A stretch of 25,592 nt of DNA from a virus. The notes below the pieces were generated by a model. It was not told where the DNA came from, made no database searches, and worked only from the letters and a program-made list of their open reading frames with translations. The stretch spans positions 1-25,592 of IMG/VR virus record IMGVR_UViG_3300023192_001927; one strand, written 5' to 3'. Made by a program: the position numbers and the translations under genes. Position 1 is the stretch's first letter; each line of letters opens with the position of its first letter. Below, in pieces: positions 7,937 to 25,521 of this stretch.

Positions 7937-10900
7937 ATGGTTGATCCTGGCTTATCAGTAGGGGACAAGATTCGACTAGATCTAGAGGTAGCTGTAAAAG
8001 ACGCACAGAGCCTATTAGATCTAACAAAAAGTCTAAAAGATCTTGCTAAGACTTTTCGGTTCGTTAAAGACAAAGGAAAAGAACTAGCAGAAACAAACAA
8101 GCGGTTAAAAAAAGCTCAGGAGGATTTCAATAAGGTAATAAAAAGGGCTAAAGGACTTAAAAGTGCGCTAGTACAGCAAACAAAAATAGAAGTCCAAGCT
8201 ACAAAAGAACTAGGTAGTGCATTCAAAAAACTACGGGTAGAAGAAGAAAAAGCCCACAAACTTGCCAAAGCAAAATTCAATCTGACGAGGCAACAGATCT
8301 CTGCAAATGTTGCTCTGATGAGGGCAACAAAAAATATACAAAAAGTCGAGAACAGAAGATTAACAACTGCTGCTACTCAAGCAGAGGTAGATAGAAAAAA
8401 GCTAAGACTAAACGCAGAAGAGCTTGCACAACTTGGTCTAAAAGCAACAGCTATAAGCAGAGAAATTGCAGCAAAAGAGCAACTAGCTCTGCAAAACGCT
8501 CTTCTAGGTGAGAAAGAGACAAGAAACATTAGGGCACAGGTTCTTGCTCTAAAAGCAAAGAACGCAGAGCTAGACAAACAAGCTCTGCGTAAAGCAAGAG
8601 CAGCAGCAGGACTCCCTGCAACAGATGGTGTGCCTAGCGCAGATAGAGTAAAGAAGTCCAGGGGCCAAGTAGACAAACTAAACAGATCGCTTAAAACAAC
8701 TCAGTCTATGGGCAACAGGATCTCCTTTACCTTTAGGAGACTGTTCGGGATTCTGGCTGCTTTCACCATTGCCCGTAAACTCGTACAGGGATTTGTTGAG
8801 TCTGTAAAGGCAGCAATTAAATTCAATGCCCAGTTGGAGCAATCCATCTTGGGTATGGCTTCTCTTATTGTGTCGGCAGGTAGAATACACACAGCACTTG
8901 GACCCGCTGTTACAGAGGCTCAAAACCTAGCTCTTGCCACACAAGAAGCCAGAAAACAAATAGAACTATTACGATCAGACGCTCTTCAAACAGCAGCGTC
9001 TTTTGAAGATCTAATAGAAGCTTTCCAAATAGCCATTACCCCTGGTCTGCAAGCTGGGCTGGGCTTGAATGAGATTCGGGAACTGACGGTAAGGATCTCC
9101 CAAGCAGCAGCGGCTATTGCGCTACCTCAGAGACAACTTGCGGAAGAGATCAGGTCTTTGCTGCAAGGAACCATCCGAGTGCGGGACACGCGAATTGCGG
9201 TGTCCCTAGGCATCACCAACGACGATATCCGTCGAGCAAAAGAGCTTGGTGATCTAGGCGGGTTCCTTACTCGCAGGTTCAGGGCTTTCGCACTAGCAGG
9301 AAAACAAGCAGAGCAAAACCTTTCAATTCTGTTCACCAACACCAAAGACGCACTTCTGCTTCTCGCAGGTAGGGCTGGTGTGGATTTCTTTGACTCAGTT
9401 AAGGAAATACTCACAAGCATAAAAGACAGTGTTGTAGAGCTAAATAAAGTTACAGGGGAGATAGAACTTGACCCTGAAGCCATGGCAGTGGCAGATACTT
9501 TCTTCTCTGCGCTTGAATCGGCTGTGCGTGAGGCAATAAAACTAAAAGATAATCTTAGTTCTTTTCAACTAGAACAGATAGGTAGCGCACTTTCCTCCAC
9601 TTTCAGTGCCACCATGACGATACTGAGAGTCGGACTTGAGGTGTTCATTGATGCTATATCTATAATTTCAGTAGGCTTAAATGCTGTCTTTCTTGTAATT
9701 AAAGGAATAGGAAAAATATTCGGGATTTTTGCTCAGGAACCCGCAATTAACAAAGCCATAAGTGGTCTTTTGAAACTAATGCTGGCTCTGGGTTTAGCTA
9801 TAAAAATAACCACCGCTGCCTGGGCAATACACAAGATTGTAGTAAAAGGAGTAAAGGCTGTATACTACACAACGCTGGTGGGCGGGAGAGCATTGGTAAC
9901 GATGTTAAAGTTTATGACCTTAGCTGTAGTTGGATCTACAGCGTCCTTTAAAGCTTTAAAAGTAACGCTGGCACCTTTGCTAATACCTATTGCTGCTTTA
10001 CTTGCAAAAATCACAGCAATTGCATTAACCGCTCTAGTTGCAGTAAGCGCAGTGAGACTGATGTTGAGTGCAGATGTAGAAGCAGATGCAATAGAAAAAC
10101 TAGAGGAACTAATACGCCTTAGAGAAGAAGAACTAAAGCTTATTAGGTATGCCAAATCAGACCTGTTAGATTCGGCTGATGCAATAGCGAGTCAAGAAAG
10201 AGAGTTTGGTCTTTTGCAAGATCGAATAAGACGAGTAGTTGCCGATCTAAACAAACTTGGTGTGTCCTCTGAAGAACTAGATCTAGTTCATGCAGGAACA
10301 GACCCAGCCGATGTTAGAAATTTCGTAGATAGAATAGTTAAAGATGCAAAACACCTACTATCAAGTCTTGGCAAAGAAATGGGAGACTTGGCCTCTGGGC
10401 TGTTTGGCGGAAAAGTGGGCCAGTCAGAACTAGAAAAGATATTCGAAAATTTCCCCCAAGCAGTGTCTCCAATAAACAGGGCACTGGATCAGCAAAGAGA
10501 TAAACTAAAAAATCTAGGCGAACAACTTAACGAGCATATAACACTTTCTGGTCTCATAGCGCAGAACATGGGTCTTGGTGGAGAAGCCCTTGAACACAGA
10601 ATAGCGCAAGCTAAAACAGAATTAGATCTAAAGAAGACAACCCTTCAGCTAGAGGCAGAGAGAACAAACGCAGAAAAGGCAACAGATAATGCACTTGAAT
10701 CTAAGCTCAACATACAAAGAAGAATAAACAAACTATCAAAAGAAGATCAGAACATAGTGGCCTTTGGTCTTAACTCACTAAAAGTCAGAAAAGGAATAAC
10801 AAACCAAATTTCGTTATTAGAGCAGAAAATAGCTACACAATATGCACTGAAAGCAAAAGAAAGAGAAGAAACAGAAAGAGATAGAATAGACTTAGTTGTT

Positions 10901-12343
10901 AAAGGTTTAGAAGAAGAAATAAAAAAAGCTGAGAAACTAGCAGAAATAGAAAGGGTTATGGGGGATTCTTTTTTTGACAAAATAGACGATGTAGAGCAAA
11001 GGAAATTCCTTGCAGAAATCGTAGAAGATCAGTTACAGGCAGAAGCAAACCTCAACGCTGCACTATCTGCAAGAGAAGAAATACTAGCAGCCATACTGAC
11101 TATAACAAAAGCTATAAGAGCAGAGGCTGGAGCAGCCTTGGCAAAAGAGGCTAGTACACAAACACAAACACTCAAGCTACAAACAGCAGAACTTGAGCTT
11201 CAGCTTAGGCACCAGAAAGAGCTAACACAGTTTTCAACTGCGTTTACAGAAACCAGAGTGTCAGAAAAGACTCTCGTACAGGCAAGACAAGCAGTAGAAC
11301 TAGAACGGCAAAAGCTGTCAGTAATAGACGCGACGAGGACCATACAAGAAGCTCAATTTTTAAAATCACTTGAAGCCGCAAAAACCGATGTTGAAAGAAA
11401 CGCTATCATCGAAAGAATGGTAGCAGGACAAAAACAATTTAACATTGAGCTTGGCATACAAAATGAAAAGCTCCAACAAACGGTCAACATACTGGATGAC
11501 CTGAAGTTCCAAGAAGACGAACCAATATTCGCTGGTGCGCTTGAAGCTGTAAGGCAAATGTCTGCTGACCTTGGAACAGAATTCACCCGCATGACCGAGG
11601 TTGTCAAATTCGGACTTGAAGGACTAGCAGACGCTATGACAGGTCATATAGTTGGCCTGTTCGATCCAACTGACACTATGACAGCAAAGGAAAGATTAGG
11701 ACGGTTCTTGCTTTCAATGTCTGCGATGATGATACAGATGATAATCAGGGTTGCCATAATCCAGAATATGCTTTTGCCTTGGCTTAATGCTATGGCAGCA
11801 AACAAAGTCCTAGAAGCAACAGCAACCAGCATAGGAACCAAGATAGCAACCTTCGGACTGGCACATGAAGGTGGAACGATCAAACCAGCAGATCACGACA
11901 CCAAACGGGCTTTCGGTCTTAGAAAAGGAGGGGCAACAGGACGACCTGGGAATATCCACCCCAACGATACTGTGCCTATTTGGGCAGAGCCTGGGGAGTG
12001 GATGATGCGCTTGTCTGCTGTGAAGAAGTACGGACTTGGTATTATGAGTTCTATAAACGATGGTCTTGTAGATCCTTCTGCGCTGGCTGCGCTTTCTGGT
12101 GCTAGTAACATTAGTCGAAACATAAGTGCAAACACCTCTCCTTCTTTCGCTAAGGGTGGTATGGTCTCAGACCAACTTGCTTTGCAAGCAGCCTTACCAA
12201 ATGAGTCTGAGTCTGAAATGCCTAATGTGGGTTTCGTGCTTGCATCTGACGATCAAATGGACGCAATGATAAACGGAGGAAGCGGTGCACTGTTGCGCTG
12301 GTTCGCTGACAACTCCAGCGTGATAAAAGGGCTAATAGATTAA
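7937..12343 (+). CDS. Tape measure protein
   Basis: At 1468 residues this is the longest gene. It sets tail length and is threaded through the tail tube. Residues 20-250 are Lys/Glu/Ala-rich coiled coil. A hydrophobic segment at about 265-285 (FGILAAFTIARKLVQGF) and a hydrophobic cluster at about 570-715 (e.g. AALLAKITAIALTALVAVSA) are the membrane-seeking segments typical of tape measures. More coiled coil runs to about 1190. The C-terminus has FLLSMSAMMIQMIIRVAII and NDTVPIWAEPGEWMMRLSAV followed by YGLGIMSSIN, a common tape-measure ending. I see no peptidase motif. It starts 8 bases after the T-like frame and ends one base before the next gene. At about 0.15 nm per residue it predicts a tail near 220 nm. 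Confidence 0.93.
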   Translation: MVDPGLSVGDKIRLDLEVAVKDAQSLLDLTKSLKDLAKTFRFVKDKGKELAETNKRLKKAQEDFNKVIKRAKGLKSALVQQTKIEVQATKELGSAFKKLRVEEEKAHKLAKAKFNLTRQQISANVALMRATKNIQKVENRRLTTAATQAEVDRKKLRLNAEELAQLGLKATAISREIAAKEQLALQNALLGEKETRNIRAQVLALKAKNAELDKQALRKARAAAGLPATDGVPSADRVKKSRGQVDKLNRSLKTTQSMGNRISFTFRRLFGILAAFTIARKLVQGFVESVKAAIKFNAQLEQSILGMASLIVSAGRIHTALGPAVTEAQNLALATQEARKQIELLRSDALQTAASFEDLIEAFQIAITPGLQAGLGLNEIRELTVRISQAAAAIALPQRQLAEEIRSLLQGTIRVRDTRIAVSLGITNDDIRRAKELGDLGGFLTRRFRAFALAGKQAEQNLSILFTNTKDALLLLAGRAGVDFFDSVKEILTSIKDSVVELNKVTGEIELDPEAMAVADTFFSALESAVREAIKLKDNLSSFQLEQIGSALSSTFSATMTILRVGLEVFIDAISIISVGLNAVFLVIKGIGKIFGIFAQEPAINKAISGLLKLMLALGLAIKITTAAWAIHKIVVKGVKAVYYTTLVGGRALVTMLKFMTLAVVGSTASFKALKVTLAPLLIPIAALLAKITAIALTALVAVSAVRLMLSADVEADAIEKLEELIRLREEELKLIRYAKSDLLDSADAIASQEREFGLLQDRIRRVVADLNKLGVSSEELDLVHAGTDPADVRNFVDRIVKDAKHLLSSLGKEMGDLASGLFGGKVGQSELEKIFENFPQAVSPINRALDQQRDKLKNLGEQLNEHITLSGLIAQNMGLGGEALEHRIAQAKTELDLKKTTLQLEAERTNAEKATDNALESKLNIQRRINKLSKEDQNIVAFGLNSLKVRKGITNQISLLEQKIATQYALKAKEREETERDRIDLVVKGLEEEIKKAEKLAEIERVMGDSFFDKIDDVEQRKFLAEIVEDQLQAEANLNAALSAREEILAAILTITKAIRAEAGAALAKEASTQTQTLKLQTAELELQLRHQKELTQFSTAFTETRVSEKTLVQARQAVELERQKLSVIDATRTIQEAQFLKSLEAAKTDVERNAIIERMVAGQKQFNIELGIQNEKLQQTVNILDDLKFQEDEPIFAGALEAVRQMSADLGTEFTRMTEVVKFGLEGLADAMTGHIVGLFDPTDTMTAKERLGRFLLSMSAMMIQMIIRVAIIQNMLLPWLNAMAANKVLEATATSIGTKIATFGLAHEGGTIKPADHDTKRAFGLRKGGATGRPGNIHPNDTVPIWAEPGEWMMRLSAVKKYGLGIMSSINDGLVDPSALAALSGASNISRNISANTSPSFAKGGMVSDQLALQAALPNESESEMPNVGFVLASDDQMDAMINGGSGALLRWFADNSSVIKGLID

Positions 12344-12344
12344 C

Positions 12345-15300
12345 ATGGCTATCATAGCACTAGATGGATTTGATCTAGATAACACAGAGTCTGCACTGGA
12401 ACGCAGATACCCTGGATCAACTATAGCTGGCAGCGGCTCAGTAGTAGACGACGATGGCAGACTTGGAGGTAGGTGCTTAAAATCTACTCTTTCGCAACAG
12501 CATGTCATAGTTATAGATCACAAAAACTACAATCCAGTCGGGGGCACATCACAACTGTACAACTTGGGCATTGCTATAAAACTTAGCACACCCTCATCCA
12601 CATTCTCATACGACATGGTAGAGGTATACGATTCCTCTGGGGATAATGTAGCAGCAAGAATACGATTGATAGCAGACGGCACTTCTACCACAGGATTCAA
12701 CTTACAGTACCACGGGTCGTCCGTTTTCGACCTTAAAACAGATCTAAGCAAGGAACTAGCCTACAATACTTGGTGGTATGTAGAGCTTGAAGTTGAACTT
12801 GGAAGTCCAACATCTCCAAAATCTAGACTGCTTATAAACGATCAAGTTATGTTCAAGTATAGCGGAGGGGGGATAAATGGACTTAAAGGATACAACAAAA
12901 CACAACTGAAACTGGTTTCCGCAAACAACGATGTATTCATAGACGATTTCTACATCAACACTGGTGGAGACCCAGGCATACTAGGTAGCGAGACACGGGT
13001 ATCTAGTTCGGTGCCTGACGGAGACAACTTTATAGAATGGTTTCCGACAGGCGGCAATAGTTCTGGTGACAATTTCGATACAATTGACGAACTCGGAGAA
13101 GCCGATGACTATGACACCTTCGTGACTAACATTATAGATGGAGATAAAGACATATACACAATGTCTAACTTCGACGGCATAGGCGGGGCTGTGTACGGAA
13201 TAGAGTATGCAATAGACACAGTATCCAACGATGAAACGGTACACACAATTTATCCTGTATTGAACTTATCAAACGAAGAAATTCTGGATCCTGTTTATTC
13301 TGGAATGCTTTCAGAGAGTTGGACTAGAATATCAATAAAAAAAACAACAGATCCAACTACAGGAATGGCTATAGGTATAGACAGACTTCTTGATGTAAAA
13401 GCTGGATTCAGAGCAAGTAAATCTCAATATGGTGGCGACTTTCTGCTTATGCCTATCGCATTAAGTGACGACACTTTATTAGGAAATGTATTTCTGGACG
13501 GTGCTGACGACTGGATTATCAATCAACAAATGGTTGGACAGGGCTACAGAGTTGTGGCATCAGACGAGAGCGGTATACCTGTGGAACTATCTGATGGATC
13601 CGCTGTACACATAATTCTGGAAGGTGACGCAGTAAGACCCAGAGCGTCATTTAAGAAAAGTGATCCTATAAGGTATGACGGATTCTACTTCCCAACAGCA
13701 GGAGATCCTAGATACTACCAAATAACACACTATGTATCCTCACTGGATACCAACTCATGGACATACGATGTACAGATAGAGCTTTCGTATCCTGCACCGA
13801 TAGGAGGTGTTAGCATTCCATACTCTGTATCGGGAACAGGCACAACAAACACCTATACAATAACCCCGTGGGAAATAGACTCTGCCTACAATTCTCCTAT
13901 AGTCATACCTGAAGGATCCACAACAGGAACAATAAGGGTAACTGTTCCTGCTCTTGCTATTCCTGACTACAAATTTACCAACACACACAAAGAATATTCT
14001 CTAATATTCAAAATATATCAAGACGAAGAAACAGACTACAGGACACACGGCACTACAGACGAATTTAGACTGTACATGAAACAAGCAGACTATGACTCTC
14101 TTAGCACCAACAACACAGCACAACTAATAGGCAAACAGTTCCCACCGCTTATAAGATCAAAAATAGAAAACTTCTATGCCTTAAGCCCTAGCGTTAACGA
14201 TATTGTTGACATAATGATATTTGAAGGTCACGATACTGTCATTGGTGGCCCCCAAGATGTAAATTTTAACTACCCGTACTCAAACGATCCTGTATATCTT
14301 TACTGGAAAGTAGATGTAAACACGATATTCGAGGGCTGGGGTCGTGACAACGAAGACGAAGTCTCGGGTATGCCAACAACGGGCGTGTTTACAGATATAG
14401 CTGGCAGCAGGTTATGGGCCACAGCAATAAAAGATGATGGGTCGATAGTCTCCTGGGGAGAGGAAAAGTGGGATAATATCCAAGGCACACCTTCGGGGAC
14501 TGGATTCTTACAGGTGGCTGCTGGTGACTATCATGGAGTTGCGCTTAAAACGGACGGATCAATTGTCTGCTGGGGCTTCAATAGTGACGGACAGACAGAC
14601 GGCCCAACTGGGAATGACTTTGTACAGGTAACAGCGGGAGGCCCTTGGCCCGCTGGTGGATCCTCGGCTGCGATCAAAACAAACGGGTCAATTGTCCAAT
14701 GGGGATACCTTGACCAGTCTGGGTCCTGGCATGCTGATCCCCCGGCTGGTTCCGATTTCGTGGAAATATCTATGGGGAATTCTTTTGGTCTAGCGTTAAA
14801 AGACGATGGGACAATTGTAGGCTGGGGAAACGACTCCCAAAATCAACTCGGGAACATCCCCCCGGGAAGCTATGTAAAGATTGCGGCAGGGGGGTATTTC
14901 GGGGTGGCAATCAAAACAGATGGGACATTAGCTGCCTGGGGCCAAGACAACGAGGGCCAAGTAGCCAATGTTCCGAGTGGGTCAGGCTGGGTTGATATAA
15001 CCTGTGGAGGGAGATGGGGTCTCGCCAGGAAAGCAAACGGGTCGCTTGCTCAATGGGGCTACAGCGGGACCGACTTAAACACAGACACCCCACCAGGAAC
15101 GGGGTTCACTCTTATAGCTGCTTCCAACCAGACTGCGTATGCGCTGAAGACTTCTCTAGCAGAGGGCACCAAATGGAAAATGGTGGATCACAACGGTGAC
15201 GATATAACACAAGGATCCTACAACCTCCAAGACTCGTACACAGCACCGCCACTCACATCGCTAAACAGAAATGTCCCCAGGTGTTTCATAAAGCTACTAA

Positions 15301-16415
15301 GCACAGACACAGGCTTTATAAAAGTAAAATTCGACTACGAACAAGTTAAAGTATCTATGAAGTTCACTTCTATAATCGATGCGTGGTTGGAGATAGTAGA
15401 AAGACTAAACGAAAATCTGTGGGCAAAAACGCAGACTTGGTCTCCAATGCGTAGTGGTTGGGGAATAGAATACTTCCCAGATGGGTCTGGTGGTAATGTG
15501 GTATGCAATAGCACACTTTCCCCTGTGTACGACGATGAAGGCATTCTCACATACGCAGGTAATGTAAATCCTTGCTTCACAACTGTTGTAGATTCAACAA
15601 AAGAAGACTCACAAGGAAACAAGCTACCAGTCTTTGAGATAACAGATGACTATACGGACGGCAGTAAGAATATTAATAATGTAAGAAACATACCGTATGT
15701 TCGCATTGACCTTAGTGGGCAATACGATGCAGACGGTTCTGTTGATTACTATCCAGTTAAAAAAGGTACTGGCAACCCAGAACCGCCGAACACTAAAGCA
15801 GGATACACACTGGCGTATGTAAAAATTACAGACCCGTCAGCAGACACTTTAGCTAGTCTAGGTAAATCGGTCTCCCCTTTTGTAAGGCTGGCTCTTAGAG
15901 ATAAAAGTGCCAACATACAAGTACAAAACTGGAATAGAATTACGCACCCAGGCGTGGACAGTCAAGCATTTGCTATGTACATAAGAAACGGATCTAATAA
16001 TTGGTCTGTATATGACACAGGTGAAACACCTACAGATGTAACAAAACCATACGCTGGTGTTATCAACAACACAGACCACAGCATACTTTGGCTTCTTAGA
16101 GAAGATGAAGAGAAAAATATACAAAAATATGCTGGAATTAACTTTCTAATTCGACCCATGTGGCACACAAATTCCGACATACGAGATAACGGTCTGATAG
16201 ATAGATGTGTTTGTTTATACGAACCGTTCTTGCAGACATACGATGTAATACCCCCAACACTGACAGACAACGGGGACGGTTCGCATACTATGACATTGCC
16301 TGATTGGTGGCCCGTACTGGGAAATCACTGGGAACCTAGAGGAAATGCTGTTATGCTAGAAGACAGCGAAAGCGCAAACTTACATTACAACTATTTCATA
16401 CTAACGGTCGGCTAA
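12345..16415 (+). CDS. Large tail-tip or fibre protein with LamG-like, Calx-beta-like and seven-unit RCC1 domains
   Basis: A 1356-residue protein directly downstream of the tape measure. Residues 1-215 resemble a LamG/concanavalin-type sandwich: GFDLDN, then YNTWWYVELEVELG, LLINDQVMF and VFIDDFYINTG. A second beta region spans about 225-420. Residues 470-555 match a Calx-beta pattern: VSIPYSVSGTGTTNTY, then VIPEGSTTGTIRVTV. Residues 662-941 are seven repeats of 34-43 residues, each starting WG and ending near ALKTDGSIV, a complete RCC1-type beta-propeller. The C-terminal 415 residues are beta-rich without a recognised fold; I see no Asp/Glu/His cluster that would show an enzyme. The role is inferred as receptor binding or tail-tip decoration. 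It could instead be a side fibre attached to the distal tail. Confidence 0.7.
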   Translation: MAIIALDGFDLDNTESALERRYPGSTIAGSGSVVDDDGRLGGRCLKSTLSQQHVIVIDHKNYNPVGGTSQLYNLGIAIKLSTPSSTFSYDMVEVYDSSGDNVAARIRLIADGTSTTGFNLQYHGSSVFDLKTDLSKELAYNTWWYVELEVELGSPTSPKSRLLINDQVMFKYSGGGINGLKGYNKTQLKLVSANNDVFIDDFYINTGGDPGILGSETRVSSSVPDGDNFIEWFPTGGNSSGDNFDTIDELGEADDYDTFVTNIIDGDKDIYTMSNFDGIGGAVYGIEYAIDTVSNDETVHTIYPVLNLSNEEILDPVYSGMLSESWTRISIKKTTDPTTGMAIGIDRLLDVKAGFRASKSQYGGDFLLMPIALSDDTLLGNVFLDGADDWIINQQMVGQGYRVVASDESGIPVELSDGSAVHIILEGDAVRPRASFKKSDPIRYDGFYFPTAGDPRYYQITHYVSSLDTNSWTYDVQIELSYPAPIGGVSIPYSVSGTGTTNTYTITPWEIDSAYNSPIVIPEGSTTGTIRVTVPALAIPDYKFTNTHKEYSLIFKIYQDEETDYRTHGTTDEFRLYMKQADYDSLSTNNTAQLIGKQFPPLIRSKIENFYALSPSVNDIVDIMIFEGHDTVIGGPQDVNFNYPYSNDPVYLYWKVDVNTIFEGWGRDNEDEVSGMPTTGVFTDIAGSRLWATAIKDDGSIVSWGEEKWDNIQGTPSGTGFLQVAAGDYHGVALKTDGSIVCWGFNSDGQTDGPTGNDFVQVTAGGPWPAGGSSAAIKTNGSIVQWGYLDQSGSWHADPPAGSDFVEISMGNSFGLALKDDGTIVGWGNDSQNQLGNIPPGSYVKIAAGGYFGVAIKTDGTLAAWGQDNEGQVANVPSGSGWVDITCGGRWGLARKANGSLAQWGYSGTDLNTDTPPGTGFTLIAASNQTAYALKTSLAEGTKWKMVDHNGDDITQGSYNLQDSYTAPPLTSLNRNVPRCFIKLLSTDTGFIKVKFDYEQVKVSMKFTSIIDAWLEIVERLNENLWAKTQTWSPMRSGWGIEYFPDGSGGNVVCNSTLSPVYDDEGILTYAGNVNPCFTTVVDSTKEDSQGNKLPVFEITDDYTDGSKNINNVRNIPYVRIDLSGQYDADGSVDYYPVKKGTGNPEPPNTKAGYTLAYVKITDPSADTLASLGKSVSPFVRLALRDKSANIQVQNWNRITHPGVDSQAFAMYIRNGSNNWSVYDTGETPTDVTKPYAGVINNTDHSILWLLREDEEKNIQKYAGINFLIRPMWHTNSDIRDNGLIDRCVCLYEPFLQTYDVIPPTLTDNGDGSHTMTLPDWWPVLGNHWEPRGNAVMLEDSESANLHYNYFILTVG
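14328..15167 (+). repeat. Seven RCC1-type coding repeats
   Basis: Repeat starts read EGWGRDNEDEV, WGEEKWDNIQG, WGFNSDGQTDG, WGYLDQSGSWH, WGNDSQNQLGN, WGQDNEGQVAN and WGYSGTDLNTD. Each continues to a VxIAAG-like strand and a (A/G)(L/I)K.DG.(I/L) ending. Seven units equal one full RCC1 propeller. Most 60-base lines here count 50-62% GC by hand against about 28-45% in flanking parts of the gene. Confidence 0.85.
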
Positions 16416-16416
16416 A

Positions 16417-17337
16417 ATGGCTACAAAAAGACGATTTCTATACATAGTACAATCTTCTGGTACAGAATATACCACCTCTGAGCAAACAGACAATGATGTT
16501 CTAGAAGGTCATATAGCAGAGGATTTTAATAACGACACACCCCAGATAATAGTTAACGATGCTGCTGGAGCAACTTCTTCTCCCACAATAGGGCCTGACA
16601 AAGTGCTTGGGCAGATAAATGTCGGTGGCACCCAAACCATCCAAGGTCTAGACGGAGCAGCAGTCAAGAACTACATACTTGGTGCCAGCACTATCGGACA
16701 ACTAGAACAGAATGCTGCAAGAAACATGCGCCCAGATTCTCCTGGTGAAATAGGTTTAGTATCAGACCTTGCTGGCCTCGAAAACGGTAGGGATAGTGCA
16801 ACAGACCCAGGCCAAATAGTACTAAAAAACTTAAAAGTTAGCACTCTTGGGAATATGACCATACAAGCCTCTTCTGGTAGTGAGTATGTGCTTCTAGACC
16901 CACTTGTTGTTCCGCACTCGTTCTCCACTGGAAACCAGTACTTCATAGTCGCAACTGCTGGGGCGACATTGATGCCCGTATTTAGAGCCAAACAACCAGT
17001 AACACTAGAATCTGGAAATGTGGTGGTATCTAGAAGCACCGACGACGACGACCCCGGCATTAGACTTCGTCTGTATAAAAGCTCAAGGGTTAGCCTTTCG
17101 TTGCCGCCTCCAACAACGGTAGGAGGCGGAAACCTCTACAACTCATTTGATGGGTTGGACGATTCTGGTTCTGGCATACTTGCAACGCTAAAACTCAATA
17201 GTTCTGTGTCCATTAGGAAACTAGCCGAAGGAGACTGGCTTTTTTTATTCAGCGAAGGCATAGAAGACACAACAGGAGCCACATCTGGATTTACCATCTA
17301 CAATCTACAAATTAGTCTTAACTTCAGCATCACTTAA
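16417..17337 (+). CDS. Hypothetical tail-tip-region structural protein
   Basis: A 306-residue protein starting one base after the previous stop. I do not recognise a family. It is rich in Gly/Ser/Thr/Asp and predicted mostly beta. The N-terminus (RFLYIVQSSGTEY) is followed by VLEGHIAEDFN and a Gly/Asn-rich centre with NMRPDSPGEIGLVSDLAG. The second half carries SGSEYVLLDPLVVPHSF, a DDDDPGIRLRLYKSS segment and a C-terminal beta strand block (DWLFLFSEGIED to YNLQISLNFSIT). No cysteine or catalytic pattern stands out. It lies between the large adhesin-like gene and the distal tail genes and is co-transcribed. A virion location in a tip fibre or collar is plausible but unproven. Confidence 0.6.
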   Translation: MATKRRFLYIVQSSGTEYTTSEQTDNDVLEGHIAEDFNNDTPQIIVNDAAGATSSPTIGPDKVLGQINVGGTQTIQGLDGAAVKNYILGASTIGQLEQNAARNMRPDSPGEIGLVSDLAGLENGRDSATDPGQIVLKNLKVSTLGNMTIQASSGSEYVLLDPLVVPHSFSTGNQYFIVATAGATLMPVFRAKQPVTLESGNVVVSRSTDDDDPGIRLRLYKSSRVSLSLPPPTTVGGGNLYNSFDGLDDSGSGILATLKLNSSVSIRKLAEGDWLFLFSEGIEDTTGATSGFTIYNLQISLNFSIT

Positions 17338-17340
17338 TAT

Positions 17341-19239
17341 ATGCCCATAAACATTACAAGACTGTCTTTAGAGGCTATTGGGGCGCAGTTAGGAACTGTA
17401 GTACCAAGAACTCCAACATCTAGCTATACCCCGTTCATTAGAAACAACTGGGTAGATACTGTCACTATTGATACCACTTGGATGACTGTGCTTGCTAGTG
17501 CAGAGGCAACAGGAGCAGAACAGAGAATACAACGAAGGAAGAGACCTGTTAGGACAATCTCTGCTCGTTGTACTGCTATGACGCAGGAAGATAGCGTCGA
17601 TATGCAGATGGTGATACAAGAAATGCAAAAAAAATCATCTACTGCATTTCCTTTGTACTGCGACAGATCTGAGCTTACAAAGAACTACAACAATGATGAC
17701 ACAGAACTATACTGCGATACTAGACAGAGGAGATTCTACAAAGGGCAAAAAATATTACTAGTAAAGGGAGACTACAGCCGATTCCAAGCAACATCTTCTG
17801 TAAAAGCCGCTGGTGCTTATCTCTTTATAGAAGAAGTTAGGTCAGACAGTCTTGTTGTCGCACCTCTCTCCTACCACTTCCCAGCAGGATCACATGTGTT
17901 TCCTGTTATTGATGTACATCCAGACCTAAAAATGAAAACAGAGCTACTTACTGATAGATATTCTATAGTAAAAATGAAAGCTCTGGAAATAGAAGGAAAA
18001 AGTTGCCTTCCTTCGTCCTGGGCTGGTGCTACACCTCCCCCAGGTAATTTGTATGAGGGGCATCCTATAATGGAAATACGGCCCAACTACGCAACAAAAG
18101 TGGAACAGTCATTCCTTCGAAAAGGATCTAGGTTCAAATCAGGAAAGGGATCGCACACAGCACTACACGCAGATGCTCCTCAGATAGCCTTTAAATACAC
18201 TGACTCCAACTTCTCAAGAGAAGAAGCATGGGATCTGTTGAGGTTCTTCGACTCAAGACAAGGAAGAACAAAGCCTTTCTGGGTGATGCAGCCTCTTACT
18301 TTTTGGGAGCCCTTAGCAATAACCAAAACCTACATAGATGTTCCTGACCATAACTATATTGCAAACATGATAAACCTTGTAAAACATATAGGAATAAAAG
18401 ATAGCTCTGGCACAATTCATATTAAAGCAGTAGACGAGATAATAAATCACCCAGGACAGTTGTTCAAAGACCCCGAGGACTTCATTGATTCGACGTGGTC
18501 CTTTTCTGGCGATGCCGAAGGTGTAGCCAACACACATCTGGCACCTGACGGGGAATTGACTGCGGATTCCATAACGGCCAATGCGGACGATACCGTAGCT
18601 AATGTGATGCAGGATGTTGCGATTACTCCCACGGGTGACGCCCCCTACACCTTTTCGGTCCATGTAAAGGACCGAGATCCCCTCCTAGGCCCTGCCGATA
18701 ATGTTCAGATTATCGTGTACCTGCTCGGTCCCCCAACCCCCCCAGCAGTTACCCGTGAGTACATGTCCTTCAATGTCGATCTAGCGAGCGGATCTATTAC
18801 TTATTTCTCTCAAGATACAAAAGGTGGTTCCGACTACACATTAGATGATATCACGGTTGAATCCGTTGGCGGCTACTGGCGACTTAGCTGCACCCTCATT
18901 GATTATTCTGGCGAGAGTGACAGGTGTCGCATGAGGATCTATCCCAATCCTCAAAATGTCTCAGTTGAACGCACCGTCGTTGTCTGGGGTGCCCAGCTTG
19001 TAAATGCTCCTGGTCCTGCGCCGCCATACGACAAGAAAATAGGAGAATACAGAATAGATTTCTCCTCTGATCCGTTCACAGTCACTCCGACTGGCGTAAA
19101 AGATGTATCTCCAGCGTGGTTGTGTCGCTTCGGATCTGATACACTCAAGCAGACTTGGACAACAGATACAATAAGTAACAGTCAAATAAGCATAGTTCAA
19201 GTCTTGAACGAGAAAACTACTGGTTTGAGTAATATGTAA
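17341..19239 (+). CDS. Distal tail-like protein with inserted carbohydrate-binding-like module
   Basis: A 632-residue protein. Residues 1-375 and 564-632 look like one tail protein: IQRRKRPVRTISARCTAMTQ, EEVRSDSLVVAPLSYHF, DLLRFFDSRQGRTKPFWVMQ, then after the insert SPAWLCRFGSDTLKQTWTTD. The 'RxGRxxPFW' and 'RF.SD.L...W.TD' motifs are typical of a siphovirus tail-tip family found just upstream of the gpL/K-like genes. Residues 378-563 form an added domain with FIDSTWSFSGDAEG, LAPDGELTADSIT, YTFSVHVKD, GGYWRLSCTLI and VVVWGAQLV, the pattern of carbohydrate-binding-module-like sandwiches. Its DNA (about 18470-19030) is richer in GC (50-55% in lines I counted) than the preceding part (32% at 18361-18420). 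The gene begins three bases after the upstream stop. Confidence 0.65.
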   Translation: MPINITRLSLEAIGAQLGTVVPRTPTSSYTPFIRNNWVDTVTIDTTWMTVLASAEATGAEQRIQRRKRPVRTISARCTAMTQEDSVDMQMVIQEMQKKSSTAFPLYCDRSELTKNYNNDDTELYCDTRQRRFYKGQKILLVKGDYSRFQATSSVKAAGAYLFIEEVRSDSLVVAPLSYHFPAGSHVFPVIDVHPDLKMKTELLTDRYSIVKMKALEIEGKSCLPSSWAGATPPPGNLYEGHPIMEIRPNYATKVEQSFLRKGSRFKSGKGSHTALHADAPQIAFKYTDSNFSREEAWDLLRFFDSRQGRTKPFWVMQPLTFWEPLAITKTYIDVPDHNYIANMINLVKHIGIKDSSGTIHIKAVDEIINHPGQLFKDPEDFIDSTWSFSGDAEGVANTHLAPDGELTADSITANADDTVANVMQDVAITPTGDAPYTFSVHVKDRDPLLGPADNVQIIVYLLGPPTPPAVTREYMSFNVDLASGSITYFSQDTKGGSDYTLDDITVESVGGYWRLSCTLIDYSGESDRCRMRIYPNPQNVSVERTVVVWGAQLVNAPGPAPPYDKKIGEYRIDFSSDPFTVTPTGVKDVSPAWLCRFGSDTLKQTWTTDTISNSQISIVQVLNEKTTGLSNM

Positions 19240-19240
19240 A

Positions 19241-20071
19241 ATGGTTAATCCTGAAGCATCTCCGTACATCCAACAAACTACTCTTGTAGAGTTTGAGTAC
19301 AGTATAGTAAAAATCTATATAACAGATGCCGAAGAGGATCTTGTTCTTATAGACGGTACTTATCTATCTGATAGCCTCCTATCAGTTAAGCTGCCTAAGA
19401 ACAGCCTTGGTGGGTTTGAAAAAACCTATGCAACCATAACAATGTCTTTACAGATACATAATTTCGCTTCACAAGCCACATCTGGAAGGGCATTTGCACC
19501 AGCTAAAGTAAAGGTAAAAGAGATAATAGATGGAGAAATAAAAACACTGTATGTTGGCAGAATGTCTTCTGCACATAGAAACACACACAACAAAAAAGAC
19601 ACCATAGAGATAAAAGTAAAGACAGAAAAAAGCGATCTGGATCAGTCTCTTGGTTTCTCCTGCAACGCAACCTGTGGTTGGGTTTTCGGTGACTCAAAAA
19701 CCTGCAAATACAACTTGCAAGCCAAAAAAGAGTCAGGTTTTTTAACAATAAACGACACAAAAACCACTACTGTAGACATAGCACTCACCAGCACCCAACC
19801 GCTAGGATACTGGGACAGCGGTGAAGTGCAAAAGGACAGCATAAGAATAAAAATAAGAGCCTGGGACGGAAACAACCGTTTTTATCTAAACAAACTACCT
19901 CCCCCCACTTGGCACGGGACATATATAGATATTCTTCCAGGCTGCAATAAAACACCAACAGATTGCAGATCTTGGGACAACGAAGAACGCTTCTCAGGAA
20001 TAGGTCTAGCGGCACTGTCCTACAACCCGATTTTCGAAAACCCAAACAACCCGTACCAGGGGAAACCTTAA
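19241..20071 (+). CDS. Tail hub protein, lambda gpL-like / BR0599-type
   Basis: A 276-residue protein with two cysteine-bearing blocks: FSCNATCGWVFGDSKTCKYN near residue 143 and ILPGCNKTPTDCRSWDN near residue 227, followed by RFSGIGLA. The paired 'C.W.FG...C' and 'PGC.....CR......F.G' motifs characterise the gpL/BR0599 group of minor tail proteins; lambda L binds an iron-sulphur cluster with conserved C-terminal cysteines. The N-terminal half (YSIVKIYITDAEEDLVLIDG; ITMSLQIHNFA) is a beta domain that packs around the tail hub. The next gene is an NlpC/P60 peptidase, as in the lambda L-K order. It starts one base after the previous stop and ends one base before the next start. Cluster binding here is inferred, not shown. 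Confidence 0.8.
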   Translation: MVNPEASPYIQQTTLVEFEYSIVKIYITDAEEDLVLIDGTYLSDSLLSVKLPKNSLGGFEKTYATITMSLQIHNFASQATSGRAFAPAKVKVKEIIDGEIKTLYVGRMSSAHRNTHNKKDTIEIKVKTEKSDLDQSLGFSCNATCGWVFGDSKTCKYNLQAKKESGFLTINDTKTTTVDIALTSTQPLGYWDSGEVQKDSIRIKIRAWDGNNRFYLNKLPPPTWHGTYIDILPGCNKTPTDCRSWDNEERFSGIGLAALSYNPIFENPNNPYQGKP

Positions 20072-20072
20072 T

Positions 20073-20555
20073 ATGAAGTGGTCTCCTTCTAACTACGGGT
20101 TTGAAGACAGACTTAGAAAGGTTCTAAAGTCCTGGGAAGGAACTCCATATAAACTAGGGGACCAAAGAAAGGGATTGGGTGTGGACTGCATCAGATTCTG
20201 TTGCGGAGTAGCGGACGAAATGTTTGGCTACATAAGAACAGAGATAGAGCTTCTTCCGCAAGACATGAGCATGAACCAGCCCAGTACAGCTTTTGCTACA
20301 ATGAGGAAGCTAAAGACCATGTACAGTCCAATCGGGTATATAGATATAGATGATCCACTAGAGCCGGGTGATATAATCGTTGCAGGACCCGACAACGGCG
20401 GTCCGGGGCATCTTATGTTTGTTGGTGCAGATAAAAACACACTATGGCATGCCTCAAACCAAAAAGTAGAATGGACAGGCATGAGTGTTCCAGTAGGTAA
20501 TACACATTTTAGGTCTCTAAGATTTAAGGATAAGATGAAATGGCTGAACAGATAG
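20073..20555 (+). CDS. NlpC/P60-family tail peptidase, lambda gpK-like
   Basis: A 160-residue single-domain protein. Residues 22-52 read EGTPYKLGDQRKGLGVDCIR then FCCGVADEMFG, the NlpC/P60 nucleophile region with the catalytic cysteine at C39. The catalytic His is H113 in GPGHLMFVG, and H126 in LWHASN is the likely third residue. Such enzymes cut peptidoglycan stem peptides and, in siphoviruses, act at the tail tip during assembly or DNA entry. In lambda K an N-terminal JAB domain precedes NlpC/P60; here only NlpC/P60 is present. The gene lies between the L-like and J-like genes, and its last 16 bases overlap the start of the J-like gene, implying coupled translation. Confidence 0.88.
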   Translation: MKWSPSNYGFEDRLRKVLKSWEGTPYKLGDQRKGLGVDCIRFCCGVADEMFGYIRTEIELLPQDMSMNQPSTAFATMRKLKTMYSPIGYIDIDDPLEPGDIIVAGPDNGGPGHLMFVGADKNTLWHASNQKVEWTGMSVPVGNTHFRSLRFKDKMKWLNR

Positions 20556-23500
20556 CATATATGATTATTGCCTATGCCATAGGCAGGGTTGCTATGGCAC
20601 TTCTGGAACCAGATCCAGAAACGCCGCTGATTGATGAAAAGCCCACAACAAGATCAACTAGGGGTTCTTTCATACCTACTCTTATAGGCACCAGAAGAAT
20701 AGGTCCGTTTATTGTGTGGTGTGGAGAAAGAAGGACAATAACAGAAACAACAAGTACTGGTGGTAAAGGAGGAGGCGGCTCATCAACAAAACAAACAATA
20801 TACTTCGAAAGCTGTATACACGCTATATGTGTCGGACCAGCCTACGCTCTGCGTAGAATATGGGTTAATGGTGCTATAGCAAAACTGGGAGAGAAAGGAG
20901 TAGGTATAACTTCAGATGACACACCTTCAGGGTCTACTATAACAATAGCTTGGTTACAAGGAGAAGATACAGTAGTCTCAAAGTTCCAAATCTTCTGGGG
21001 CGAAGATGATGGGCCTATAAATTCATTTGCACAGAGCCCCCTCAGACTAGGATTAAAATCAAAGTGGCCCTTTATATGCCACCTAAACTGGATAGATATG
21101 CGTCTAGGTGGTTTCGCTGTATGGCCCACCATAGAATACGAGATGGAAGTTCGACCCTACGGCACTAGTAATGTTGGTCTAACAACATCAAGCTGGATGT
21201 ATGGCCCAGGCTCGACAGGCAATAAGAGACTGATACTAACAGCTCGTAACTCAACAAATGTTGGGGGGTCTGCATCAGATTTCCCTATGATATCCGTTAG
21301 TGGTGCCATGAGGAGTGATGGCAACTTTGTAGAACAGGAATATCAAAACGGGCGTAGAGATAGCATACCGACTAACGGACTAGCCAATCTCCAAGGACAA
21401 CCAGCAACAACAAAAGGTATTTACGGAACAAGCTATCTAAGAACTACTTCCCTACCAACAAACAAACATGAATACATAACAAGGGACTACGATACCGTCC
21501 CCGGCGATCTGTGGGCATCAGAAAAACAACTTGGCAATGTGTCCAAAGACCTAACTACTTGGGATATGGGAGGGTTTCCTAGTAGCGTGACGTATGTAGG
21601 TAATTTGATCTTAGGTAACGGGAAGGGTGGTGGGGGGGGGAACATTACTGCGGACCACGGATCTATATATAGACTAGACGGATCCACTGTAATGGCAGGA
21701 TCAATGAGCGTTTGGAAAGACCAAGGCAGCTTCAATAAGGTGAGCCCAAATTCGTCCGCCCCAGGTGCAGCGCAGTATATTCAATTTTTTGTAAGCAATA
21801 TACTTCCTTGGGGTGATACCACCACTACTGACGGTTCTCACTCCTGTTGGATAGGATTCAAAAATAAAACAACAGGCGCATCCCACACTGTAAAAATATA
21901 CTACGATTCAACACAAACCCTAATCGCAGACCTGACAGACTCTAACGGTGCCTGGTGCGTTGAAATCAAATATCTAGATACCAAAGGCACCCCACCATTT
22001 AACGGCACTGGAAAGTCAGCTTGGTACAACATAAAGGTTGCTTACAAAACCGAAACAGGAGATACCGTAAGTTCGAATCCAGAACTTAGAACTTGGTATG
22101 TTTCCTGTCAAAACACAACCTCATACAACGAGACTCTTGATCTATGCACATTTGACACCTATGGGTCAAGCGTTAAGTCGATAGATGCTATAATAAAAGG
22201 CACCATCATTACGGGGACAACTTCCGTTGAACTCGCTAGCCCGCTTCAGGGTGCTTATGAAGATGTGGGAACAGCAGAGGGCATCGGAGACTACAATCCA
22301 TCCACAGTGGAAGGAGCTATGTTTTATAAGGACGCTGTTGACGGAGCGAACCCTGGTCATGTCCTGTACCAGCTTCTATTTGCTCCCTTCCCGCACGGTG
22401 CTGGACTTTCTACAGATAACTGGGATATCCCTAGTCTGGAAACTATTGCCGCTCTGACAGCATCTGAGGGTGCCAGGACGCATGTACTCGCCCCGAACGG
22501 TAAAATGGCTAAGGGCATAATAATATCAGTTCTCCACGATTCGCATTGCTACATTGCATGGGACCTTGAAAAAGGCAAGTATATATTTGGATCTATCAGG
22601 GATACCGTTACTGACTTACTGCCTGAAATCCCCATAGACGCTGTACTCTCACCAGCCCCAGAACATGACACTGTTCACGAAGTAGGAATACCCAACCAAC
22701 TAGTGTTCAGCTATCCTTCAAGAAAACTAGCATACAGGAATAGTACCAGGGTGGCATACGAAGACACCGTAGCTTCTGAGTTCAACAATAGGATAATAAA
22801 GAAATCAAGTATAACCACAGCTACAGATAGTTTCTATGTGGATGCGATTGCAGAGAGAAAGCAACTAGAAGAACTTATTCCAGTAAACAAGTATAAAATA
22901 GTAGCTAACAGAGATTCAAAATATCTCCACCCCGGACAGGCTTTTACAGTGTTCGACTTCCCGGCAAAAGGAGAAGAAGAGACTCTGAGGGTTATAGAGA
23001 CACAGTACAGCCCTGGCGATAAAAAAGTAACCATCGATGCAGTTACTGATGTTTATTCATTAATAGACACACAGGCCTCAACATCGTTGTCGCCGCCCGA
23101 TCCGGGTTTTGACGAGCCTGGATTTGAAGAGATAACAATTCTGCAAGATGTTGCAACATCTATATGGGAACTTCCTCCCAAGCTTACTTTTGGAACCTTC
23201 TCTTATATGCCTTTGCGTATTAGAGCAAATCAAAAGACAGGACAAACTCCAGCCTACTCCTCCAAGGACGACATTTCATACGCCTTGACTGCAACCGATA
23301 TACCTTACTGCACTGGAGGTACTTTGGAGGTAGCAACAGACTCAACATCGGACGACATAGACACCTTGGTTATAACTGGCCTTGGCGAGGATTTGAAAAC
23401 ATTCCCTAAGACACTCGACGACAATAACTGGATTGCTGGTCAACAACTTTGCGTTATCGACACAGAGGTCTTCTTTCTCCAGTCAGTGACTGGTCTAGGA

Positions 23501-23809
23501 AACAACAGGTATAGCCTAAACGGGCTAAAGAGGGCCAAGCACACTTCGACCGCCGCAGTGCATGCCATTGATTCTGTCGCCTTTATATTCCCTATAGGGA
23601 GCATAATCAGAATCAAAGACCCGTTAGCAGAAGTGGGTCAAGCCATATATGTGAAACTTGTTCCTCTTGGCCTCACCTTGGCAGACATAACAACAGCTAA
23701 GATAACGAAAACACTGACTGGTACTGGTCAAATTGACTATCAAGCCTCGCCCACCGATGCCTCAATCAGGGACGCCCTCACTGCTCTCGGTTTTATGAAG
23801 GAATCCTAG
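20540..23809 (+). CDS. Central tail-tip (host specificity) protein, lambda gpJ-like, with extra inserted domain
   Basis: A 1089-residue protein. It begins with a hydrophobic segment (AYMIIAYAIGRVAMALL), then FIPTLIGTRRIGPFIVWCGE and a Gly/Ser-rich loop, and YALRRIWVNGAIA, the N-terminal hub region. After GFAVWPTIEYEMEVRP comes about 380 residues unlike the hub (roughly 217-600): Gly/Thr/Ser-rich, with a Gly tract. Hub sequence resumes at GANPGHVLYQLLFAPF and continues to NNRIIKKSSI, YKIVANRDSKYLHPGQAFTV and KVTIDAVTDVYSL, the phage-tail-3-like part shared with lambda J and the GTA hub. C-terminal residues about 860-1089 include a 'NRYSLNGLKRAKHTST' segment typical of this group. It should close the tail and bind the receptor. 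The end overlaps the minus-strand zinc-ribbon gene by 48 bases. Confidence 0.8.
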   Translation: MAEQIAYMIIAYAIGRVAMALLEPDPETPLIDEKPTTRSTRGSFIPTLIGTRRIGPFIVWCGERRTITETTSTGGKGGGGSSTKQTIYFESCIHAICVGPAYALRRIWVNGAIAKLGEKGVGITSDDTPSGSTITIAWLQGEDTVVSKFQIFWGEDDGPINSFAQSPLRLGLKSKWPFICHLNWIDMRLGGFAVWPTIEYEMEVRPYGTSNVGLTTSSWMYGPGSTGNKRLILTARNSTNVGGSASDFPMISVSGAMRSDGNFVEQEYQNGRRDSIPTNGLANLQGQPATTKGIYGTSYLRTTSLPTNKHEYITRDYDTVPGDLWASEKQLGNVSKDLTTWDMGGFPSSVTYVGNLILGNGKGGGGGNITADHGSIYRLDGSTVMAGSMSVWKDQGSFNKVSPNSSAPGAAQYIQFFVSNILPWGDTTTTDGSHSCWIGFKNKTTGASHTVKIYYDSTQTLIADLTDSNGAWCVEIKYLDTKGTPPFNGTGKSAWYNIKVAYKTETGDTVSSNPELRTWYVSCQNTTSYNETLDLCTFDTYGSSVKSIDAIIKGTIITGTTSVELASPLQGAYEDVGTAEGIGDYNPSTVEGAMFYKDAVDGANPGHVLYQLLFAPFPHGAGLSTDNWDIPSLETIAALTASEGARTHVLAPNGKMAKGIIISVLHDSHCYIAWDLEKGKYIFGSIRDTVTDLLPEIPIDAVLSPAPEHDTVHEVGIPNQLVFSYPSRKLAYRNSTRVAYEDTVASEFNNRIIKKSSITTATDSFYVDAIAERKQLEELIPVNKYKIVANRDSKYLHPGQAFTVFDFPAKGEEETLRVIETQYSPGDKKVTIDAVTDVYSLIDTQASTSLSPPDPGFDEPGFEEITILQDVATSIWELPPKLTFGTFSYMPLRIRANQKTGQTPAYSSKDDISYALTATDIPYCTGGTLEVATDSTSDDIDTLVITGLGEDLKTFPKTLDDNNWIAGQQLCVIDTEVFFLQSVTGLGNNRYSLNGLKRAKHTSTAAVHAIDSVAFIFPIGSIIRIKDPLAEVGQAIYVKLVPLGLTLADITTAKITKTLTGTGQIDYQASPTDASIRDALTALGFMKES
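21632..21640 (+). repeat. Homopolymer G9 tract inside the J-like gene
   Basis: Nine consecutive G follow GGTGGT within the codons for GKGGGGGN (about residues 361-368). It is the longest single-base run I noticed in the window and lies in the inserted, probably exposed, domain. A one-base slip would truncate the protein. Confidence 0.8.
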
Positions 23810-24009: not shown

Positions 24010-25521
24010 TTAAGACCAAATATCTGCTCTTCTTGAGTCATGCCCCTTAGAAGCTGCCAAGCCTGGGGCACCTATTTTTGAATAAAAAGCCATAACACAG
24101 GCATCGGCTCTGTCGGGTGATGTTTCTTCCAGTCGTCTAACGAAATCGTCTTTGGATTCAAGTTTTATCTGTCCCTTCTCTGTCGTCTTGTACATGCGTC
24201 CTGCAAGTTGTTGAAGAAGCCTGTTGTCATTGGGCAAATAAACTTCTTGCTCTTTGACCTTGGTAGCCATATCAAACCATGCTTCTGTAATCAGGTTTCC
24301 GTACTGGTCGGCTCTATAGGCTTTTGACCCGTTGTGGAACTCGTACACCTGTTTCCCTGCCTCGTAGAACATGTGCATGACTCCCTGGCCCATCCCTGTG
24401 GCATCGGGGACATACACGCAGTCCCCATCACCCCAGCCAGCCTCCATTTGCATCCTGAAGGCCCTACGGACGGAATCAGCGGGTTCTACATGCGACATGA
24501 CAGCTTGTTCCACTATTGCATTCCCAGATCTGCGATAAATAACGGTCTCGTCGCTTCCGAATCGAGCAAAATCTATGGCTATTACCCGCATAGATAGGTC
24601 TTTTTGAGCGCATTTGACCATGGATCGGGCAGTGCATGGCTCCAAATCCTCCATAGAAATGACGCAATTGGGGTCTGCTGACGGGAATTCACCAAGAACT
24701 CGGACCCTATAAACATCAGAATCCTTCCCATATTGCCTTTCCAAACGCTCATTTCGCTTAACATCAACGATATCTGGTCTATATTCGGCTGTGTCTTCTG
24801 CATTTAGGGTGTAGGTTTGCCACTCATGCCTGTCCCTGTGGAAGCAATCAAAGAACGAACAGTCCCTCAGGTTGGGGTTTCCGATACCAATCAGCATGCA
24901 GTCGTTGTTGGATAGCGTTCCTTGGAACTGTTCAATGATAATTCTGTCGATACCAGACATTTCCTCACAGATAATGGTGAGCCCGTCATCGTGGAATCCT
25001 TGTAGCTTCTTGTCATCAGTAGATGTAATGCAGTAAATAGCCCATCTGCGGTCTTTGGCTATCTCAACCTTCTGTGCCCTTGCGTCGAAGATGTTTTGGA
25101 AATACGGATGCGCCTTGGACAAGACCTTGCTTGCCTCAGACAACCAAACATCCTGGCACTGCCTCATGGTAGGGGCAGTTACCACCGTCTTGCCGTAGCT
25201 TCGGAACCCGCGCCACAGACCTATCTTTGTTGAGGCGTGTGTCTTCCCTGGCCCCTGTCCAGACTTTGCAGCTATCTGCCTGGACGCAGGTATGTCTCCC
25301 GTCCCAGGTCTTGCGCGTTTTGGTTCGTCTGGGAGCCTGGGCAGGGGAGGGGGTAGACCGAATTGTGCTGCCTGTACCATGTCGTACAGGGTATATTGCT
25401 GCCAAGTATCGTTAGGGCTGTTAAGACCGTACTCGACAAAAAAATGTATATCTTCACGGCACTTCTGTATGAAGTCCCGAAGATGTTTTTTGCTATTACT
25501 CCCCGCTGTCTTTATTTCCAC
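24010..25521 (-). CDS. terL: Terminase large subunit (packaging ATPase and nuclease)
   Basis: A 503-residue protein. The ATPase half has the Walker A loop GQGPGKT at residues 88-94, LTIICEEMSG at 181-190 as Walker B with the catalytic Glu pair, and the coupling motif LIGIGNPN near 210-217. The nuclease half begins with VIAIDFARFGSDETV (metal-binding Asp at about 317), continues through YVPDATGMGQGV and ends with TSPDRADACVMAF, a usual terminase closing motif. The start is a GTG with AAGAGG about 7 bases upstream and a stop codon in frame just before, so no longer version is possible. It overlaps the end of the preceding minus-strand frame by 26 bases. Its orientation opposes the head and tail genes. 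Confidence 0.94.
   Translation of the reverse strand: MEIKTAGSNSKKHLRDFIQKCREDIHFFVEYGLNSPNDTWQQYTLYDMVQAAQFGLPPPLPRLPDEPKRARPGTGDIPASRQIAAKSGQGPGKTHASTKIGLWRGFRSYGKTVVTAPTMRQCQDVWLSEASKVLSKAHPYFQNIFDARAQKVEIAKDRRWAIYCITSTDDKKLQGFHDDGLTIICEEMSGIDRIIIEQFQGTLSNNDCMLIGIGNPNLRDCSFFDCFHRDRHEWQTYTLNAEDTAEYRPDIVDVKRNERLERQYGKDSDVYRVRVLGEFPSADPNCVISMEDLEPCTARSMVKCAQKDLSMRVIAIDFARFGSDETVIYRRSGNAIVEQAVMSHVEPADSVRRAFRMQMEAGWGDGDCVYVPDATGMGQGVMHMFYEAGKQVYEFHNGSKAYRADQYGNLITEAWFDMATKVKEQEVYLPNDNRLLQQLAGRMYKTTEKGQIKLESKDDFVRRLEETSPDRADACVMAFYSKIGAPGLAASKGHDSRRADIWS

Follow-up and report, generated by a model that had tools for sequence, protein, structure and literature searches.

A short-repeat RCC1_2/BLIP-II-type propeller, predicted to be seven-bladed, within a large protein of a siphophage tail gene cluster

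Propellers of the RCC1 class have been met in phages before, usually as genes of their own, and the 1356-aa open reading frame considered here, in which such a propeller appears to be built into a larger protein, raises the question of what kind of propeller it is, how it came to be there and what it does for the virus. The window, by which we mean the whole stretch of DNA that was analysed, corresponds to a 25,592-base virus record in IMG/VR, and the positions of its relevant features are collected in Table 1.

Table 1. Features of the propeller gene and its surroundings (window coordinates)
Feature	Position	Strand	Basis or remark
Presumed tape measure protein, 1468 aa	7937..12343	+	size and synteny only
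Tail-module protein with propeller, 1356 aa	12345..16415	+	ORF; identical copy in IMGVR 3300022693_001976
N-terminal module, residues 1-357, phrog_2448-like	12345..13415	+	BLASTP, PHROG and Pfam matches
Mostly beta region, residues 358-657	13416..14315	+	no Pfam match; low-confidence model
Predicted RCC1_2/BLIP-II-type seven-bladed beta-propeller, residues 658-938	14316..15158	+	RCC1_2 match, AlphaFold2, Foldseek
N-terminal strand predicted to complete the last blade, residues 658-666	14316..14342	+	AlphaFold2 model m1b9725ff85a3, strand E69-77
WG unit 1, residues 665-703	14337..14453	+	
WG unit 2, residues 704-742	14454..14570	+	
WG unit 3, residues 743-785	14571..14699	+	five-residue loop insertion
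WG unit 4, residues 786-826	14700..14822	+	
WG unit 5, residues 827-864	14823..14936	+	
WG unit 6, residues 865-903	14937..15053	+	
WG unit 7, residues 904-938	15054..15158	+	without its own last strand
C-terminal region, residues 939-1356	15159..16412	+	relatives detected only in the near-identical contig
306-aa protein between RCC1 gene and distal tail gene	16417..17337	+	no matches
Distal tail/tail assembly protein, 632 aa	17341..19239	+	phrog_1082; GTA spike-fibre domain, residues 374-560
Baseplate hub-type tail assembly protein	19241..20071	+	phrog_778, phiJL001 Gp84 N-terminal domain
Tail tip protein	20540..23809	+	phrog_1101, partial GTA megatron match
Terminase large subunit-like ORF	24010-25521	-	phrog_2, phrog_5902; convergent with structural genes

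The starting point is a repeat. A first-pass annotation made from the sequence alone had counted seven consecutive units, each beginning with the residues WG, and this count is confirmed: the units start at residues 665, 704, 743, 786, 827, 865 and 904, with a spacing of 38-43 aa, and an eighth WG at residue 891 is out of register. Such regularity is not matched by chance arrangements of the same residues, as the longest regularly spaced run of WG was 4 in 5000 shuffles of the whole protein and 5 in 5000 shuffles of the propeller only, against the 7 observed. Nothing points to recent amplification, since pairwise identity among the units is 29-47% and short DNA repeats between units share 61-82% identity with their reference copies.

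Profile searches place these units among the short-repeat RCC1 proteins. The Pfam model RCC1_2 (PF13540) matches well above its curated cut-off of 22 bits (83.8 bits for the whole protein and 91.4 bits for the isolated domain; E=2e-26); the long-repeat RCC1 model PF00415 scores 12.4 bits on the whole protein, below its cut-off of 21.7, and its 23.9 bits on the isolated domain come from a partial repeat. A PF00415 search of the whole virus record gave no match, as short repeats like these need the RCC1_2 model. Among solved structures, BLIP-II is nearest in sequence (E 2e-19). The propeller and 17 bacterial relatives align unit for unit, seven to seven, and a profile built from that alignment finds BLIP-II over its full length (E 1e-63); UVR8, RCC1, the HERC proteins and phiKZ gp131 are all more distant. 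Supplied with the same alignment, AlphaFold2 predicts a closed seven-bladed propeller; pLDDT exceeds 90 over most of it and drops below 50 in the flanks. The seventh blade contains two strands of its own, with the N-terminal strand (residues 658-666) completing it; in Foldseek, nearly all of BLIP-II could be aligned to this model (TM 0.86-0.87, rmsd 2.1-2.4 Å).

The RCC1_2 match, the predicted structure and the Foldseek alignment together support the earlier claim of a complete seven-unit RCC1-class propeller in a large protein of the tail cluster, with the closed ring standing as a prediction rather than a solved structure, and the borders first proposed, residues 662-941, prove accurate to about 4 residues when set beside the 658-938 of the model. 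On that model, residues 658-938 are a short-repeat bacterial propeller of the RCC1_2/BLIP-II type. The eukaryotic Ran-GEF type of RCC1 is excluded as far as unit length can tell, since the units are 38-43 aa and ~50 or more would be needed (PF00415), and the original framing of the domain by way of eukaryotic regulators was misleading, its nearest relatives being short-repeat bacterial proteins and BLIP-II.

Judged by its neighbours, which match phrog_1082, phrog_778, phrog_1101 and a GTA spike-fibre domain, the propeller gene lies within a tail cluster, and the order of the genes is that of Casjensviridae such as Erwinia phage pEp_SNUABM_08. The upstream 1468-aa neighbour had been called the tape measure; its size and its synteny with pEp_SNUABM_08 agree with that name, but no family matches this ORF, so the label rests on size and synteny. 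In Marinobacter phage PS6 and Brevundimonas phage Fanboy the two genes preceding phrog_1082 encode phrog_687 structural proteins, and in the window it is the RCC1 protein and the 306-aa protein that occupy this slot. Homology of either the C-terminal part of the RCC1 protein or the 306-aa protein with the proteins in the same slot of PS6 and Fanboy was tested and rejected, and the 306-aa protein matched nothing in the libraries and collections searched, cultured phages included. Weak matches to Pfam Caudo_bapla_RBP and NCBIfam MrdA were regarded as chance, and neither RNA families nor tRNAs were found in the window. In the 632-aa protein downstream, NCBIfam GTA_spike_fiber matches residues 374-560 (window 18460-19020) over its cut-off, at E 4e-15, and this stretch overlaps a second local rise in GC in the tail cluster, to about 51%.

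A second contig, IMGVR 3300022693_001976, is identical to the window across the entire 1356-aa gene, both propeller borders included, which means that the fusion is not a chimera of a single assembly, with the reservation that the two contigs may come from samples that are not independent. All seven differences between them fall inside the presumed tape measure gene (window 10089-11251), where they form a few clusters, some synonymous and some changing amino acids. Beyond this contig, no close relatives turned up when viral contigs were scanned with four queries: the N-terminal part, the C-terminal part, the propeller and the 632-aa neighbour.

The remaining domains of the protein are less sharply defined. 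Residues 1-357 are similar to a Fanboy protein (BLASTP 24% identity, E 6e-14 pairwise) and to phrog_2448 (E 2e-7), and homologues of this module, in Brevundimonas phages and other viral contigs, are stand-alone proteins of ~350 aa encoded next to tail-tip or fibre genes. One of these relatives matches Laminin_G_3 (E 2.5e-4), which suggests a lectin-like jelly roll, and the module is probably a concanavalin A/LamG-like jelly roll plus a second beta domain. The low-confidence model of this part is too poor to confirm the jelly roll: AlphaFold2 gave residues 1-640 a mean pLDDT of 46, and the best result of a fold search with them, PL7 jelly rolls at E 0.013, was not significant. Residues 358-657 have no Pfam match, and a Calx-beta-like stretch within them is suspected by eye. 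The C-terminal ~416-418 aa have no match in cultured phages. One viral contig (1563-5666) carries several consecutive phrog_2448-like genes in tandem just before a 1021-aa gene, an arrangement that suggests an amplified adhesion cassette.

How the propeller entered this gene is a question on which base composition has been made to speak. The first-pass annotation had seen a jump in GC at the edges of the propeller and had taken it for the mark of a module inserted as a unit. The jump is real, at 53.7% in the propeller against 41.9% in the remainder of the gene and 44.7% in the other genes and the remainder taken together, though the 28-45% originally given for the flanks was slightly low (34-48% in 60-codon windows). 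When the propeller is re-coded with the codon usage of the remainder of the gene, its GC becomes 49.4%, and 50.8% results from that of all other coding sequence; amino-acid composition therefore accounts for two thirds to three quarters of the jump. What is left lies at third codon positions, where GC3 is 0.504 and 0.37 (remainder of the gene) or 0.41 (all other coding sequence) would be expected. This excess goes beyond codon sampling, codon usage differs (chi2 p 0.001), and the 0.095 over the other-gene expectation ranks among roughly the highest 4% of 280-codon windows; yet the contig's own head genes have an equal or larger excess, up to 0.118, and that of the propeller continues ~40 codons past its end.

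Propellers elsewhere give the jump a different meaning. In 24 RCC1 regions of other genomes and phages, GC12 averages 0.548, and in the window propeller it is 0.554; the difference between an RCC1 region and its surrounding locus averages +0.009 over the 24 regions and +0.037 in AT-rich loci, and the +0.092 of the window is at the high end among such regions, yet not alone. Since GC at codon positions 1 and 2 of these propellers averages 55% in the genomes sampled, a local rise in GC at an RCC1 domain says little about transfer, and as a sign of insertion as a unit the jump in the window is weak. Nevertheless, the idea that a GC-rich foreign module was recently inserted into a phage gene previously without a propeller, which would be compatible with either of the two main functions considered below, draws some support from the jump itself and from the residual GC3 and codon usage. 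It is opposed by the share of the jump owed to amino-acid composition, by the head genes, by the overrun, by the lack of any donor closer than 39-42% identity and by our finding no relative in which the flanks are joined without the propeller. Because the head genes equal the leftover GC3 excess, such an insertion is possible rather than demonstrated, and on balance we doubt it.

Propellers of this class occur in a range of phages and bacteria. The cultured phages matched by the propeller include PS6, Synechococcus phages and Salicola phage SCTP-2, among others, and the RCC1 protein of PS6, used in turn as a query, matched 20 records. Several RCC1 proteins of Caudovirales, one of them named a tail tubular protein, were matched in a viral structure library. 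Where gene neighbourhoods were read, the RCC1 gene of S-SRM01 stands beside baseplate and long tail fibre genes, that of LIBA6276 beside a tail fibre gene and that of Jenst beside a cell-adhesion gene, and in SP-15 and LIS04 the neighbourhood holds a baseplate gene together with a pectate-lyase or pectin-lyase-fold gene. RCC1 proteins have been detected by mass spectrometry in the virions of W70 (PMC11370258) and GAP32 (PMC5259590). Bacterial relatives of the propeller, from Bacillota, Verrucomicrobiota and other groups, reach 39-42% identity, and many of them are large multi-repeat proteins; we infer that the propeller derives ultimately from a bacterial surface or secreted protein.

Some apparent relatives lie to one side of this survey. 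A match in Aphanizomenon phage Yong-DA (ON073792.1) was not counted, the locus being unconvincing as that of a phage; the stretch read around it holds polysaccharide-synthesis genes and no phage genes, and the record may not be that of a phage. In a 144-kb viral contig, IMGVR_UViG_3300029448_000001, two frames of 4227 and 2277 aa jointly hold ~70 RCC1_2 repeats, far beyond the need of one propeller. Apparent matches to RCC1 in the literature turned out to be Rhodobacter locus tags (rcc1086) and algal strain numbers and were discarded.

With related rings known from the virions of other phages, the propeller probably belongs to a familiar kind of host-binding module, and the receptor or surface binding at a tail tip put forward in the first-pass annotation remains the most likely role, given the tail cluster and the phage analogues. 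We consider it likely that the 1356-aa protein is a virion adhesin of a siphophage tail tip with the propeller as its ligand-binding domain; presence in the virion, exposure at its surface and receptor binding would all follow from that reading. The closed ring would sit within a large virion protein of the tail tip, the surrounding beta domains, the phrog_2448 module among them, would anchor and present it, and its exposed face of loops would attach, during adsorption, to a protein or glycan of the host surface. The propeller fold alone does not specify the ligand.

The main rival to an adhesin is a scaffold, in which the propeller would serve as a protein-protein platform in the tail tip or between fibres and leave receptor binding to other proteins, for instance to the GTA spike-fibre domain encoded in the neighbouring gene. 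Protein binding is common among RCC1 propellers, as in that of BLIP-II with TEM-1, and the gene's position, after the presumed tape measure and ahead of the distal tail gene, is the slot that phrog_687 structural proteins take in PS6 and Fanboy. However, the window's own proteins there, of 1356 and 306 aa, show no match to phrog_687, and the RCC1 genes of other phages lie mostly in variable fibre or depolymerase regions, not in the core tail, so that a scaffold seems to us rather unlikely. That the propeller acts as an inhibitor at the cell surface, where it would bind an enzyme of the host or of a competitor, for example a penicillin-binding protein or a beta-lactamase, has in its favour that BLIP-II is the nearest solved structure by both sequence and fold, but ~31% identity over a repeat scaffold, in the overall alignment, says little about the binding face, and BLIP-II is a secreted Streptomyces protein rather than a virion protein, which makes this highly improbable; a tail-borne, enzyme-inhibiting analogue that would seize a cell-wall enzyme, for instance a penicillin-binding protein, as its receptor or target during infection is, if anything, more improbable still.

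The locus links the poorly understood phrog_2448 module to a likely ligand-binding domain. It also adds a complete short-repeat RCC1 propeller fused into a siphophage tail-cluster protein to a set of phage examples that are, in most cases examined, separate genes. No functional test of a phage RCC1 propeller was found in the literature, and this one, as a soluble domain of 280 residues, should be simple to express and assay.

RCC1 propellers in phages are thus already documented, and this case stands out by its fusion within a protein of 1356 aa and by a gene position preceding the distal tail gene; fusion of such a propeller to a phrog_2448-like N-terminal module was not found in the other phage records examined. 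The closest known structure, BLIP-II (PDB 1JTD, 3QHY, 3QI0), likewise has seven short RCC1_2 units, but it is a stand-alone inhibitor and about 31% identical, whereas the window propeller is a domain of a tail-region protein. Among bacteria, an 1823-aa protein of Paenibacillus flagellatus has seven units of 37-39 aa and 39% identity to the window propeller, and several short-repeat RCC1_2 proteins are similarly embedded in large proteins, though these are cellular and their flanks unrelated. The RCC1 protein of PS6 (ATN93310, Casjensviridae) shares the short RCC1_2 units at 33% identity, and the capsid protein of PS6 is distantly similar (26.5%) to that of the window; its RCC1 gene, however, encodes a stand-alone protein of 298 aa and lies two genes downstream of the phrog_1101 tail protein, whereas that of the window is fused and lies upstream of the distal tail gene. 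GAP_001 of GAP32 and the phrog_4219 protein of W70 also have an RCC1/BLIP-II domain and have been detected in virions; both phages are large myophages of other groups, and phrog_4219 falls below threshold for the window protein. The C-terminal domain of phiKZ gp131 (PDB 4GBF) is a seven-bladed propeller at the baseplate periphery (PMC4901313) of a different, giant myophage, matching the propeller profile weakly and over a short stretch (E 6e-7), and gp131 is a suspected receptor binder. Finally, Gp45 of phi11, a tail receptor-binding protein (PMC4901313), resembles the window protein in carrying a propeller within a multidomain protein, with five blades of a non-RCC1 kind in place of the seven RCC1_2 blades predicted here.
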